This document shows positions 3,755 to 8,884 of a stretch of 49,281 nt of DNA, piece after piece; within the stretch, counting starts at the first letter, position 1; each line of letters opens with the position of its first letter. Source of the DNA: Gammaproteobacteria bacterium (lineage in GTDB: Bacteria; Pseudomonadota; Gammaproteobacteria; Pseudomonadales; Azotimanducaceae); the NCBI GenBank assembly GCA_018647445.1, contig JABGTE010000022.1, positions 1-49,281 on the forward strand. Reading direction: 5' to 3'. The position numbers and the translations under genes were made by a program. The notes beneath the pieces were generated by a model. It was not told the DNA's origin, ran no database searches, and was given only the letters and a program-made list of their open reading frames with translations.

Positions 3755-4678
3755 TTAGGGGCCCTCAATTCTTTTGATGCCAGCCAGATGATTAAAACAG
3801 GTTGATATCGCTGTGCTCAAGAACTCTTGCATAAACGGATCCTCGAGTTGCTCGCGACGGACGGCGGCATAAAGTCGTCCCCAAAGGCCGTTTTCCGACA
3901 GTCGCTTCGCGGTTAGTAACTCGTTTGCCAAATACTCTGTCAAAGCCCAATTTGGAAGACACGTGACGCCCCGACCGCTTGCGACCAATTGCACTATCAT
4001 TGGCGTCAGTTCGGCATTTCGAATCTCAGCCGGGTCGACCCCGGCCGGGTCGAGAAACTGGGTAAAAATATCCAATCGGTCTCGATCAACGGGATAGGTG
4101 ATGAGGGTTTGATCCGCCAAATCCAGTGGGTTGATAACGGTCTTCTGGCTCAACGCGTGCCGATTCGACACAGCCAACATCGCTTCGTATTCGAACAAGG
4201 GCTCGTAGTGAATATCGGGTAGGTCAATCGGATCCGAGGTAATCACGAGGTCAAGATCCCCTCGCGCTAAAGCCGGCAACGGCGTAAAACTAAATCCGCC
4301 GATCAAATCCAATTCCACTTCAGGCCAATTCAAACGGTAGGCTTCGATACAGGGCACCAGCCACTGAAAACAAGAATGGCACTCAATGCAAATGTGCAGC
4401 CGACCGGCCTCACCCTGCGTTAATCTCGCGATATCTCGCTCAGCAGCTTTAAATTCGGGCGCTACCAGGTCTGCAAGCGCCAGTAACCGGCGACCGGCGC
4501 TCGTGAACCTAGGCGGCTTAGTCTTCCGAATAAAGAGCGTACAGTTTAGCCGATCCTCAAGATCTTTAATTTGATGTGATAAGGCGGATTGCGTTAAGTG
4601 CAGCACCTCTGCAGCTTCAACCAAACTACCCATTTCTCGAAGCGCCTTTAACGTTTTTAAATGCCTCAGCTCAAGCAT
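3755..4678 (-). CDS. metR: MetR, LysR-type regulator of methionine biosynthesis
   Basis: A LysR-family regulator that matches E. coli MetR closely from memory. The N-terminus MLELRHLKTLKALREMGS corresponds to MIEVKHLKTLQALRNCGS, and TQSALSHQIKDLE is the winged-helix recognition region. IECHSCFQWL and the LITYPVDRDRLDIF stretch lie in the homocysteine-sensing domain. I start at the ATG at 4678, which fits MetR; the track start at 4702 adds eight residues without a ribosome site. The usual divergent partner metE is absent; the divergent neighbour is a glycosyltransferase operon. A MetR-like site lies upstream. The SAM-II-controlled sulfhydrylase at 14.8-16.0 kb could be one of its pathway partners, which is inference. 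Confidence 0.92.
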   Translation of the reverse strand: MLELRHLKTLKALREMGSLVEAAEVLHLTQSALSHQIKDLEDRLNCTLFIRKTKPPRFTSAGRRLLALADLVAPEFKAAERDIARLTQGEAGRLHICIECHSCFQWLVPCIEAYRLNWPEVELDLIGGFSFTPLPALARGDLDLVITSDPIDLPDIHYEPLFEYEAMLAVSNRHALSQKTVINPLDLADQTLITYPVDRDRLDIFTQFLDPAGVDPAEIRNAELTPMIVQLVASGRGVTCLPNWALTEYLANELLTAKRLSENGLWGRLYAAVRREQLEDPFMQEFLSTAISTCFNHLAGIKRIEGP

Positions 4679-4720
4679 GCTTACCAAATGATTAAAATTC
4701 ATGGTTATAGTACTAAATCA

Positions 4721-4733
4721 CGAAAAAAATTCA
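4721..4733. promoter_or_regulatory. possible MetR binding site
   Basis: CGAAAAAAATTCA matches the MetR consensus TGAANNNNNTTCA at all but one position. It lies 43 bases upstream of the metR start, where autoregulation would be expected. The run of A makes chance matches easier. Confidence 0.35.
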
Positions 4734-4857
4734 ATTACCTCCCCATATTTTCGAAATAAAACCGCTCCACTTAGCCTGCTGGTCGCATTTTAGGCTCAAA
4801 ATTTATACTATTGCGCGGAATTTCTTAACGCTGTGTGAGCTGTTATTGCCCCCAAAA

Positions 4858-4870
4858 GTCTACGGTAGAC
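4858..4870. promoter_or_regulatory. perfect 13-bp palindrome upstream of the GT4 operon
   Basis: GTCTACGGTAGAC is a perfect dyad (6-bp arms, 1-bp centre) about 45 bases before the glycosyltransferase ATG. A TATACT box at 4804-4809 could be the -10 element of the same unit. This may be an operator. No known regulator is recognised. Confidence 0.3.
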
Positions 4871-4914
4871 TCAGATAACGGCATGCACCGCGTCCAAGCG
4901 GGATTGCGCGAAAT

Positions 4915-6150
4915 ATGAAAATTTGTCTGCTGGGTTATCGCAGCAATCCTTACAGCGGCGGTCAGGGCATTTATCTTCGTCACCTAGGCCTAGCACTCAT
5001 CGCCGCCGGTCACCAAGTCGATGTCATTTCGGGCCCGCCCTATCCTGATCTGGACCCTCGAATTAAACTGATCAAGCTTCCGAGCCTTGACCTCTATGCC
5101 ACCCCCGATCATATCCGGGCTTTTAAGTGGGGTTACTTACGATCGGTAACCGATTTGATCGAGTATGTTGATACCGTGTTTGGAGGCTTCCCAGAGCCTT
5201 ATACCTTCGGCCGCAGACTCATTCGCTATTTTGATCAACATCAACCTCAATACGACATCGTTCACGACAATCAGAGCTTGTGTTACGGCGTTCTTGCACT
5301 CCAAGAAAAAGGCTACCCCGTGATCACAACGGTTCATCACCCTATCACCCGAGATTTAGAGATTGCACTCTCCGAAACCACCGATTGGGGCATGCGATTA
5401 TTAATCAAACGCTGGCACTCGTTCCTTTCAATGCAAACCAAAGTGATTCGCAAGCTGACGCATCTCGTTAGCGTGTCGGACGCGGCTAGAAAAGATATTG
5501 CCGATGCGTTTGATGTGGATGCCCAACGCATCCATGTCGTGCACAACGGCATCGACCTAAACCGATTCAAGCCCATGCCGGAGATCACTCGGGCACCACA
5601 TCGACTGATGACAACCGCCAGTGCGGATGCACCGCTCAAAGGCGTTCAGTACCTGCTCAAGGCACTCGCTGAAGTCGCAAAGGTTGTTCCCGACGTCACC
5701 CTATGTTTACTCGGAAAACTGAAGCCAGGCGGAGAAACCGAAGCCCTCATCGATGCCTTGAATCTTCGAGATCGGATCGAATTCCACGTCGACATTTCCG
5801 ATGAAGCAATGGTCGCGCTTTATGCGCGCGCAACGATCGCTATTGTTCCGTCGGTTTATGAGGGATTTGGCTTCCCCGCAGGCGAAGCCATGGCCTGCGG
5901 CGTACCCGTTATTTCAACCCGAGGTGGTGCGCTCCCCGAAGTTGTTGGCAATTGCGGGGTTTTAGTTGAACCTAAGGATAGTCAGGGCCTTGCTACGGCA
6001 ATCCTTGATCTTTTAAACCGCCCCGATGAACTTGAACGACTCGCGAGCATCGGCCGCAGGCGGATTGAGCAGCAGTTTCAATGGTCGCGAGCTGCCGCAG
6101 AATTTCTAGCACTGTATCAAACCGTCAACGGATCGCCTCATGTCTCTTGA
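4915..6150 (+). CDS. GT4-family glycosyltransferase
   Basis: A 411-residue retaining glycosyltransferase of the GT-B fold, family 4. The N-terminal acceptor domain opens with MKICLLGYRSNPYSGGQGIYLRHL, containing the glycine-rich acceptor loop. The C-terminal donor domain has HNGIDLNRF and the EX7E motif in SVYEGFGFPAGEAMACGVPVI (Glu316 and Glu324), which binds the nucleotide-sugar. No membrane segment is seen. It is the first gene of a tight three-gene operon, overlapping the following methyltransferase by 11 bp. The neighbours suggest it glycosylates a molecule that is also methylated. The acceptor is unknown; lipid, polyketide-like or carbohydrate acceptors are all possible. Confidence 0.88.
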   Translation: MKICLLGYRSNPYSGGQGIYLRHLGLALIAAGHQVDVISGPPYPDLDPRIKLIKLPSLDLYATPDHIRAFKWGYLRSVTDLIEYVDTVFGGFPEPYTFGRRLIRYFDQHQPQYDIVHDNQSLCYGVLALQEKGYPVITTVHHPITRDLEIALSETTDWGMRLLIKRWHSFLSMQTKVIRKLTHLVSVSDAARKDIADAFDVDAQRIHVVHNGIDLNRFKPMPEITRAPHRLMTTASADAPLKGVQYLLKALAEVAKVVPDVTLCLLGKLKPGGETEALIDALNLRDRIEFHVDISDEAMVALYARATIAIVPSVYEGFGFPAGEAMACGVPVISTRGGALPEVVGNCGVLVEPKDSQGLATAILDLLNRPDELERLASIGRRRIEQQFQWSRAAAEFLALYQTVNGSPHVS

Positions 6151-6883
6151 AACCATTAACGCCAACTTCCTCGATCTAAACCCAGAGGATCTTTTGCTGG
6201 ACTTAGGCAGTGGCGAGGGTCGCCACACGATTTCCTTTGGTCTCAGTCAGAAGATTACCGCCGTGGGTCTCGATTTATCGCATACAGACTTAAAGACCGC
6301 GACTGAAAGACTGTCGGACTTTGAAGATCTGAGCACCACTGAATCACCTAGAGTTTGTTTCACGCAAGGCTCTGGCAATCAACTGCCGTTCAAAGACCAG
6401 CAATTTGATAAGGTCGTCTGCTCTGAAGTGCTTGAACACATTCATGACTACCAAGCGTTCTTGCAGGAAATCAAGCGAGTGATCCGGCCCGGAGGCGTGT
6501 TTGCAGTGAGCGTGCCCGCCGCCTTCCCCGAGTGGGTTTGCTGGAAGCTGAGCGATGCCTACCACGCGATGGAAGGCGGGCACATTAGAATTTTTTCAGC
6601 AAGCACCTTGCATCGAAACATCGAGCAATTAGGTTTCAAACGCTATCGATCTCATAAAGCGCATGCCTTACATGTTCCTTATTGGTGGCTTAAATGCTTG
6701 TTGTGGCGCGCCGACCCACAACACCCGGTGGTCACAACCTATCATCGATTTTTAGTTTGGGATCTTATGAAAAAGCCTTGGATCTCGCGTACCCTGGATC
6801 GCATCTTGAACCCTATCCTGGGAAAATCTATTGTCATGTACTACGTTGCGACAGCGTTAAACCGCCCGAGCCAGAGCGATTAA
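6140..6883 (+). CDS. class I SAM-dependent methyltransferase
   Basis: A 247-residue Rossmann-fold methyltransferase of the UbiE/Methyltransf_11 type. Motif I is LLLDLGSGEGRHT (about residues 18-30), the acidic loop at the end of strand 2 is in GLDLSH, and the later motif is VCSEVLEHIHDYQAFL followed by RVIRPGG. The rest is a family-variable cap (WVCWKLSDAYHAMEGGHIRIFS). The substrate is not readable. It overlaps the glycosyltransferase by 11 bp, and the toroid gene starts two bases after its stop. The three genes are surely co-expressed and probably act on one product. Internal ORFs on both strands are shadows. Confidence 0.88.
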   Translation: MSLETINANFLDLNPEDLLLDLGSGEGRHTISFGLSQKITAVGLDLSHTDLKTATERLSDFEDLSTTESPRVCFTQGSGNQLPFKDQQFDKVVCSEVLEHIHDYQAFLQEIKRVIRPGGVFAVSVPAAFPEWVCWKLSDAYHAMEGGHIRIFSASTLHRNIEQLGFKRYRSHKAHALHVPYWWLKCLLWRADPQHPVVTTYHRFLVWDLMKKPWISRTLDRILNPILGKSIVMYYVATALNRPSQSD

Positions 6884-6884
6884 G

Positions 6885-7931
6885 ATGAACCACGCGCCCT
6901 TACAAAAAGACCCGACGCTTGCGAAAATGCTCGATGAAACCGCAGCCTACATTGCCTCAGTTCAAAGCCTAGATGGCTGCATCGCCTGGTTTGTTGGCGG
7001 CAGCGCAGACCCTTGGGACCACATCGAAGCTGCAATGGGTTTGGCAACCAGCGGTCGAATTGATGCGGCAAAAAGCGCCTACAATTTCCTTGCCGAGCAG
7101 CAGCTTGCTAATGGCGGTTGGTTTGTCACTTATGAACAGGGTAAGCCCAAAGACACCAGTCGAGTCGAATCAAATTTCGTGGCCTACATCGCAACCGGCA
7201 TCTGGCACCTTTATCTGGTGACAGATGACAAAACCGTCCTCACCACCTACTGGCCCATGGTGGCAAGGGCAATGCAATTGGTGGTTAGCTTGCAAGGCAC
7301 CTATGGCGAGATCTATTGGGCCATTGATTCCGAAACCGGTGTTCAAGAAGATGCTCTCGTTACGGGATGTAGCTCCATTTTCCATAGTCTTGGATGCGCC
7401 ATTGCAATTGCGGATACCCTCCACGCGCCGAGCGCGATGCTCAAACAAACGAGACAAAACCTTAAAACCGCGCTGACTGTTCACCCTGAAGCGTTTGACC
7501 GAACCTGGGAAAGCAAAGCACGGTACTCCATGGATTGGTTTTACCCCGTCCTGACCGGCGTCCTGACTGGATCCGCGGCGCTCGCACATATTGATCAGCG
7601 CTGGGATGAATTTGTCGTCGATCAACTGGGGTGCCGTTGTGTCAACGACCAACCTTGGGTGACGGTGGCCGAGACTTGCGAGCTGGTCATGGCATTAGCC
7701 GTTGCCGGCGATACCGCTCGAGCCAGCACTGTGTTTAGCTGGATTCATCAGTTCCGAGATGACGTCGGTGCCTACTGGACGGGATATGTGTTCCCGGACC
7801 AAGCCATTTGGCCAGAAGAGCGGACCACTTGGACAGCCGGAGCGGTGTTGCTCGCAGCCGATGTTTTGTCAAAACGCACCGCCGGCCATCGGCTATTTTT
7901 ACAGTCTTTAAACCAGACTGCCAACACTTAA
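6885..7931 (+). CDS. alpha/alpha-toroid protein, prenyltransferase/terpene-cyclase-like
   Basis: A 348-residue protein built from repeated helix-pair units such as WDHIEAAMGLATSGR, YNFLAEQQLANGGWFVTY and TWTAGAVLLAADVLS. These are typical of the six-barrel alpha/alpha toroid seen in protein prenyltransferase beta chains, squalene/oxidosqualene cyclases and six-hairpin glycosidases. QxxxGGW-like motifs are present, but I see no DxDD or DDTAE acid motif of true cyclases. Activity as a cyclase is therefore doubtful, and a glycan- or lipid-binding or hydrolysing role is possible. It starts two bases after the methyltransferase stop and ends the operon before a hairpin at 7941-7972. No signal peptide. 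Function unknown. Confidence 0.75.
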   Translation: MNHAPLQKDPTLAKMLDETAAYIASVQSLDGCIAWFVGGSADPWDHIEAAMGLATSGRIDAAKSAYNFLAEQQLANGGWFVTYEQGKPKDTSRVESNFVAYIATGIWHLYLVTDDKTVLTTYWPMVARAMQLVVSLQGTYGEIYWAIDSETGVQEDALVTGCSSIFHSLGCAIAIADTLHAPSAMLKQTRQNLKTALTVHPEAFDRTWESKARYSMDWFYPVLTGVLTGSAALAHIDQRWDEFVVDQLGCRCVNDQPWVTVAETCELVMALAVAGDTARASTVFSWIHQFRDDVGAYWTGYVFPDQAIWPEERTTWTAGAVLLAADVLSKRTAGHRLFLQSLNQTANT

Positions 7932-7940
7932 ACCCGTAGA

Positions 7941-7972
7941 AGAGAGCCTTAAAACGCGGCAGGCTCTTATTT
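7941..7972 (+). terminator. probable weak terminator after the GT4 operon
   Basis: AGAGCCT (7943-7949) pairs with AGGCTCT (7961-7967) across an 11-base loop and is followed by TATTTG, a poor U-tract. It lies 10 bases after the toroid gene stop, so operon termination is the natural reading. Confidence 0.4.
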
Positions 7973-8079
7973 GAGTCAGGATGTTGCACTACCGAGATGG
8001 TGCTGATTTTTACGGGCAAAGTCTTCTAACACTGCCAAAATATCCGCCCATCACAAGATCAGGGACGCCGATTTGACGG

Positions 8080-8700
8080 CTACTGCTTGACCTTTCGCCT
8101 CAGAATTCCAAGCGTCTTCACCATTCTTAACAGCTCAAATTTTCCCGAAGCCAAGGCCGCTTGATAGATTTCAAATGGCGGCCTGCCGCCGTCTTTGGGA
8201 TCTGGAAAGATATCATGAATCACCAAAAGCCCGCCCGGAACAACCCAAGGCGACCAAACCTCATAGTCGATTGTGGCGGCCTGGCTACTATGACCGCCAT
8301 CGATGAACACCAGGCCCAAGGGCATCTTCCAATCCCGACCCACAACTTTTGAGGCCGCAACGATAGGAATCACCGTATCCTCAAGCTGAGCTGCCAATAT
8401 ATTCGAACGAAACACCGCAAAAGAATCAAACAACCCGGCTTCCGCGTCGTAGAGTTCGGCGTCATGGTAAGCCTCACCCACCTGATGCTCTTCGGAGCCG
8501 CGATGGTGATCAATGGCGAACAGACTGTTCTGACTCTCCTGACACCCAGCGCCCAAATAGACAGTCGATTTGCCACAATAACTGCCGATTTCTAGGCACG
8601 GTCCCAATGCCGCAACCGAGCGCGCCGATTCATACAGGGCAAGCCCTTCATCGGCATCCATAAAGCCTTTGATCGCATCAATATCGACTGAAAGTTTCAT
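8080..8700 (-). CDS. class I SAM methyltransferase (Methyltransf_24 type)
   Basis: A 206-residue methyltransferase with a catechol-O-methyltransferase-like core. Motif I is CLEIGSYCGKSTVYLG (about residues 35-50), then FAIDHHRG. GLVFIDGGHSSQAATIDYEVW carries the DGGH motif typical of the Methyltransf_24/MacOCIN group, and GGLLVIHDIF follows. The DGGH and HD pairs could bind a metal. It converges on the GT4/methyltransferase/toroid operon, 148 bp away, and may act in the same pathway. Yet on its own strand it follows a small membrane protein by 4 bases and lies downstream of moeA. Substrate unknown. Confidence 0.85.
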   Translation of the reverse strand: MKLSVDIDAIKGFMDADEGLALYESARSVAALGPCLEIGSYCGKSTVYLGAGCQESQNSLFAIDHHRGSEEHQVGEAYHDAELYDAEAGLFDSFAVFRSNILAAQLEDTVIPIVAASKVVGRDWKMPLGLVFIDGGHSSQAATIDYEVWSPWVVPGGLLVIHDIFPDPKDGGRPPFEIYQAALASGKFELLRMVKTLGILRRKVKQ

Positions 8701-8704
8701 ACCA

Positions 8705-8884
8705 TCAAACCCAAAAGAAGATGCCGGTGTAGATGACGAACATCGAAGCCCCAGCGTAGATCAGCAGGTTCATCGCAGTAGACCACTTGTCTGGCCTTCG
8801 AATTGGAAGCCGGTCACCAACGCCCAACCAAATCAAACATCCCAGCAGACCGCCAAACACAATACTGATGATTAATAATCCCAT
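8705..8884 (-). CDS. small two-helix membrane protein (59 aa)
   Basis: Missed by the ORF track because it is 59 residues. The ATG at 8884 is preceded by GGAG at 7 bases and lies 13 bases after the moeA stop. The TGA at 8705-8707 lies 4 bases before the next gene's ATG. Two clear membrane helices are visible, residues 3-22 (LLIISIVFGGLLGCLIWLGV) and about 38-58. They are joined by a basic loop (DRLPIRRPDKW), a hairpin topology with positive loop. No family is recognised. Its tight placement between moeA and the methyltransferase implies co-expression. It may anchor or assist the methyltransferase, which is inference. Confidence 0.6.
   Translation of the reverse strand: MGLLIISIVFGGLLGCLIWLGVGDRLPIRRPDKWSTAMNLLIYAGASMFVIYTGIFFWV

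Follow-up and report, generated by a model that had tools for sequence, protein, structure and literature searches.

What might a glycosyltransferase, two methyltransferases of different classes and a protein with an alpha-alpha toroid fold be doing together in a marine gammaproteobacterium? We addressed this question for a locus in the window, that is the whole 49,281-nucleotide stretch of DNA analyzed here, which belongs to a genome assembly of 3.0 Mb that is 91% complete. The locus consists of manT (4915 to 6150, plus strand, 411 aa), meT3 (6140 to 6883, plus strand, 247 aa), mmpH (6885 to 7931, plus strand, 348 aa), and meT1 (8080 to 8700, minus strand, 206 aa, convergent with mmpH), named after the counterparts described below, and all four ORFs have an ATG start and a proper stop. 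This layout is the one originally predicted, including the 11-bp overlap between manT and meT3 and the 148 bp separating the mmpH stop from the end of the opposite-strand meT1, except that the meT3/mmpH junction measures 1 bp rather than 2 bp. The predicted protein classes were also recovered in Pfam, with PF13439/PF00534 for the GT4 glycosyltransferase and Methyltransf_11 and Methyltransf_24 for the middle and opposite-strand methyltransferases, respectively. When compared to three congeners, the four genes display dN/dS values of 0.05 to 0.17, which indicates purifying selection. A promoter and terminator scan of the locus gave scores at or below those of shuffled sequences. A defense system was considered and rejected, PADLOC returning only one weak match to a methyltransferase domain. 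Finally, meT1 and a MoeA-like gene are separated by a short ORF of ~58 codons (8708 to 8884, minus strand), whose product resembles a membrane protein.

When the toroid protein was searched against all solved structures, the sole convincing match was MmpH of Mycobacterium hassiacum (7qsj, E = 4.6e-95). An AlphaFold2 model built on 35 relatives (mean pLDDT 93) superposes on 7qsj with an rmsd of 1.0 Å, a TM score of 0.91, and 46% identity by Foldseek, and the other solved folds among the Foldseek matches listed show an rmsd above 4 Å and at most 16% identity. After MmpH, the sequence and fold most resemble glycosidases and sugar epimerases. The protein has no match in Pfam and a weak one in NCBIfam, to the glucoamylase-like oligosaccharide amylase TIGR01577. 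That the toroid might instead be a relative of prenyltransferases or terpene cyclases that binds an isoprenoid is a reading to which we give practically no credence, since what speaks for it is a general alpha-alpha toroid shape, whereas the DxDD and DDTAE motifs are absent, as originally noted and confirmed by a sequence check, there is no Pfam prenyltransferase match, and both sequence and fold lead to MmpH first. The earlier suggestion of a hydrolytic partner therefore stands, while its prenyltransferase/cyclase-like label gives way to a glycosidase-type (α/α)6 barrel, predicted to be an MMP α-(1→4)-endomannosidase, MMP being the 3-O-methylmannose polysaccharide. The job of the matched enzyme is thus a related one, not one foreign to the proposed pathway.

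Conservation extends to the active site. The three MmpH residues tested by mutagenesis, D47, D50, and E262, changes in which strongly reduce or abolish activity (PMC9883506), are all present in the window protein as D42, D45, and E263, and of the residues that this study assigns to catalysis or to the pocket, 11/11 are identical. Across 148 MmpH homologs, E263 and E266 are invariant, and the D42 position is acidic throughout (147 Asp and 1 Glu). At the D45 position (MmpH D50), 17 of the 148 have Asn instead, namely all seven alphaproteobacterial proteins and 10 others. The structure paper left open the choice of catalytic acid between MmpH residues (PMC9883506). Since D50 is replaced by Asn in these homologs and D47 is always acidic, this pattern points to D47 rather than D50 as the probable catalytic acid, and it illustrates how natural residue variation among homologs is useful for MmpH enzymology.

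The remaining three proteins lead to the same pathway. The GT4 protein, a predicted α-(1→4)-mannosyltransferase with GDP-mannose as donor, best matches ManT (7qsg, E = 2e-106, the second-best match being at 1.7e-25), and its H142, K242, E316, and E324, which correspond to ManT H142, K240, E313, and E321, are invariant in 93 homologs. Changes in the last three ManT residues strongly reduce or abolish activity (PMC9883506). The opposite-strand methyltransferase matches the 1-O-methyltransferase MeT1 (6g7d/6g80/6h40, E = 1.4e-60) over nearly its full length. For three window proteins, the best PDB match is thus one of the three MMP enzymes with a solved structure. The middle methyltransferase lacks a close relative among solved structures, and it is ~40% identical to the product of the gene occupying the same slot in Mycobacterium (L080, for example), the putative 3-O-methyltransferase pMeT3. 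Judging from position and sequence, it is the pMeT3 ortholog, O-3 methylation by pMeT3/MeT3 being itself putative even in mycobacteria.

We then asked how well this gene set is conserved by examining 148 loci found through MmpH, which therefore do not sample genomes at random and for which counts are lower bounds because contig ends cut some loci. The order manT > meT3 > mmpH on one strand recurs in 138 of the 148, which rules out chance as an explanation for the three-gene grouping. This order was seen in 80/84 loci in Gammaproteobacteria, 6/7 in Alphaproteobacteria, 18/18 in haloarchaea, 31/31 in Actinobacteria, and 2/7 in Deltaproteobacteria, as well as in one SAR324-labeled locus. A convergent meT1 within 0.8 kb accompanies 68/84 gammaproteobacterial, 6/7 alphaproteobacterial, 18/31 actinobacterial, 0/7 deltaproteobacterial, and 0/18 haloarchaeal loci. 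Whole-genome searches detected MeT1 in 22/22 non-archaeal genomes, mostly ones in which meT1 does not adjoin mmpH, and in none of the 18 haloarchaeal genomes. In Desulfobacterota (L081, L085, L087, L090, and L093), mmpH is separated from manT and meT3 within the stretch retrieved, and three deltaproteobacteria with a solitary mmpH encode manT and meT1 elsewhere in the genome. As for the flanks, which were compared by targeted queries and whose gene names are read from sequence rather than curated, the window's kin have metR and a moeA-like gene, many Halieaceae and SAR86 have waaA, hldE, tolC, or dTDP-sugar genes, and different genes are found elsewhere. A genome-neighborhood search with the toroid as query thus bears out the proposed association: the genes inside the module stay together across distant groups while their flanks differ.

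The gene upstream, divergent from manT (3755 to 4914), encodes a LysR regulator resembling MetR, whose match to NF011950 (E = 1e-87) does not reach the curated cut-off, and a near-consensus MetR palindrome, CGAAAAAAATTCA, is found at 4721 to 4733. Eight related loci also have metR upstream of the module, and exact TGAA-N5-TTCA sites occur in some of them. Through MetR the module might be linked to the supply of methionine/SAM, or these sites could reflect plain metR autoregulation.

Orthology and fold, the catalytic residues, the order and co-occurrence of the genes, and the presence in the window genome of a GMP/PMI gene for GDP-mannose synthesis all converge, and we propose, with a probability of roughly 0.88, that together the four genes make up a complete module for MMP-type biogenesis. 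The original prediction of one functional module, opposite-strand methyltransferase included, agrees with this enzyme set and its conserved co-occurrence, and glycosylation and methylation of a shared molecule is what orthologs of the MMP set would be expected to perform. What does not hold is that the system has no named pathway and is undescribed, because the MMP biogenesis cluster is known from mycobacteria (PMC9883506). By analogy with the steps established with the mycobacterial enzymes (PMC9883506), MmpH would cut a mature α-(1→4)-linked 3-O-methylmannan at an internal bond, ManT would add mannose from GDP-mannose onto the released methylated oligomannosides, MeT3 would probably methylate the newly added residues at O-3, and MeT1 would methylate the freed reducing-end O-1, so that each parent chain would prime daughter chains. 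It is from this analogy that we infer what the enzymes do in the window organism, which polymer they make, and that it is cytoplasmic.

Could the product be something else? ManT and MmpH share ~42 to 50% identity with their characterized mycobacterial counterparts, which leaves room for a different linkage or methylation, and the haloarchaeal copies, which lack MeT1 and have altered pocket residues, indicate that the family diversifies. An MMP-like set acting on a polymer with another linkage, sugar, or methylation pattern is nevertheless unlikely in the window organism, where the eleven named MmpH residues are unchanged and MeT1 is present. Still less likely is that the enzymes build a methylated mannan for export or for attachment to LPS or another surface glycan, its chain length being determined by MmpH. 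This possibility is raised by 45 long gammaproteobacterial loci that do not belong to the window's close kin, in 20 of which the module is near LPS-core or nucleotide-sugar genes (such as waaA, hldE, and dTDP-sugar genes), but the module itself encodes neither a transporter nor a polymerase, ligase, or lipid-carrier transferase, its flanks are different in the window (metR and moeA-like), Cellvibrionaceae, actinobacteria, and haloarchaea, and the mycobacterial counterparts act on a cytoplasmic polymer (PMC9883506). In L033, L069, and other Halieaceae/SAR86 loci, the module is inside or beside LPS-core loci (waaA, hldE, ilvE, and tolC), an arrangement shared by many marine gammaproteobacteria.

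With an MMP-type module as the preferred reading, we wondered how widespread it might be. MmpH was detected in 39 of 58 relatives, whereas a sample of 274 genomes from across the class yielded only 7 carriers, one of them the window genome itself. Named carriers include Microbulbifer, Simiduia, Spongiibacter, Zhongshania, Endozoicomonas, Aestuariicella, SAR86, Parvibaculum, and Desulfatitalea, as well as the haloarchaeon Natrinema gari. There are strong matches in 85 of 198 genomes of the class of Mycobacterium (E below 1e-80) and in 18 of 244 of the haloarchaeal class (E below 1e-160), several of the latter on megabase-size contigs, which makes contamination unlikely. Haloarchaeal loci (L078, L115-L125, and L152-L157) keep manT-meT3-mmpH with meT1 absent genome-wide, and their MmpH proteins show the pocket changes N97H, F98R, and T160A/S; this form may be a true variant. 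In an MmpH tree, haloarchaeal, actinobacterial, and deltaproteobacterial copies each form one clade (supports of 100, 94, and 99, respectively), and the window copy is placed among those of its own genus. The haloarchaeal and actinobacterial clades are recovered in the ManT and MeT3 trees as well. The trees were made with FastTree and contain some long branches, and their deep branching order is not to be trusted. Recent transfer from mycobacteria can be discarded because the actinobacterial copies are one clade and the window copy falls within its own genus, and old presence with inheritance inside groups would fit these phylogenies better. In the literature that we searched, MMP genes were described only in Actinobacteria, although a wider range may be reported beyond that search, no paper joined polymethylated polysaccharides with Proteobacteria, and the polymer had been isolated from no gammaproteobacterium. 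The module already has a name; what is new relative to that literature is its host range, including an unexpected Gram-negative marine lineage.

This host range bears on the physiological role of MMP, which has been poorly defined so far and discussed in terms of the FAS-I and mycolic acids of mycobacteria. In vitro, the mycobacterial polymer binds acyl chains, and it has been proposed to regulate FAS-I (PMC2674218); mycobacteria that have lost mmpH make no MMP and grow more slowly at 15 °C (PMC9883506). The FAS-I marker PF08354 was found in Mycobacterium and Dietzia but neither in the window genome and its 18 relatives examined nor in any proteobacterial or haloarchaeal carrier tested. The window genome encodes the condensing enzyme FabF, and in 4/5 haloarchaeal carriers only short thiolase-like stretches match FabF. 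On the basis of gene content, FAS-I regulation cannot be the general role of MMP, since the window's genus has no FAS-I and the MeT1-less haloarchaea mostly have no FabF either. The most likely job is holding or solubilizing long acyl chains, or aiding growth in the cold, rather than FAS-I regulation; acyl-chain carriage could apply to FAS-II bacteria, and cold adaptation or another cytosolic role is possible. More broadly, we lean slightly toward a picture in which MMP is a polymer widespread in marine Gammaproteobacteria, Alphaproteobacteria, Desulfobacterota, Actinobacteria, and haloarchaea, with a role independent of FAS-I and, in haloarchaea, which would make a distinct variant polymer, probably of fatty acid synthesis altogether. 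FAS-I-free Gram-negative marine carriers and the reduced haloarchaeal module offer simple hosts in which this role could be addressed by gene deletion.

How does the module compare to known systems? At the level of fold, GH15 and GH125 glycosidases share the (α/α)6 barrel and the position of the catalytic base (PMC9883506), but identity is ~8 to 15%, they are exo-acting, and their −1 subsite is different. The mycobacterial 6-O-methylglucose lipopolysaccharide (MGLP) is likewise a cytoplasmic polymethylated polysaccharide made with a GT4 enzyme and methyltransferases (PMC2674218 and PMC4555173), but it is glucose-based, primed by glucosylglycerate, and octanoylated, and its enzymes are not the best matches to the window proteins. 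The acetylated MMP of Streptomyces griseus (AMMP) belongs to the same polymer family in a nonmycobacterial host (PMC9883506); that host is an actinobacterium, however, and the window module contains no recognized acetyltransferase. The relevant comparison is with the MMP cluster of nontuberculous mycobacteria, which encodes MeT1, MmpH, pMeT3, and ManT (MSMEG_6481-6484 and MHAS_04402-04405) (PMC9883506). The window module differs from it in its Gram-negative host without FAS-I and in sequence, with identities of ~40 to 53%, but it shares the four enzymes, the manT-meT3-mmpH order, the convergent meT1, the fold, and the tested catalytic residues, and its arrangement is that of Mycobacterium loci L080, L088, and L092.
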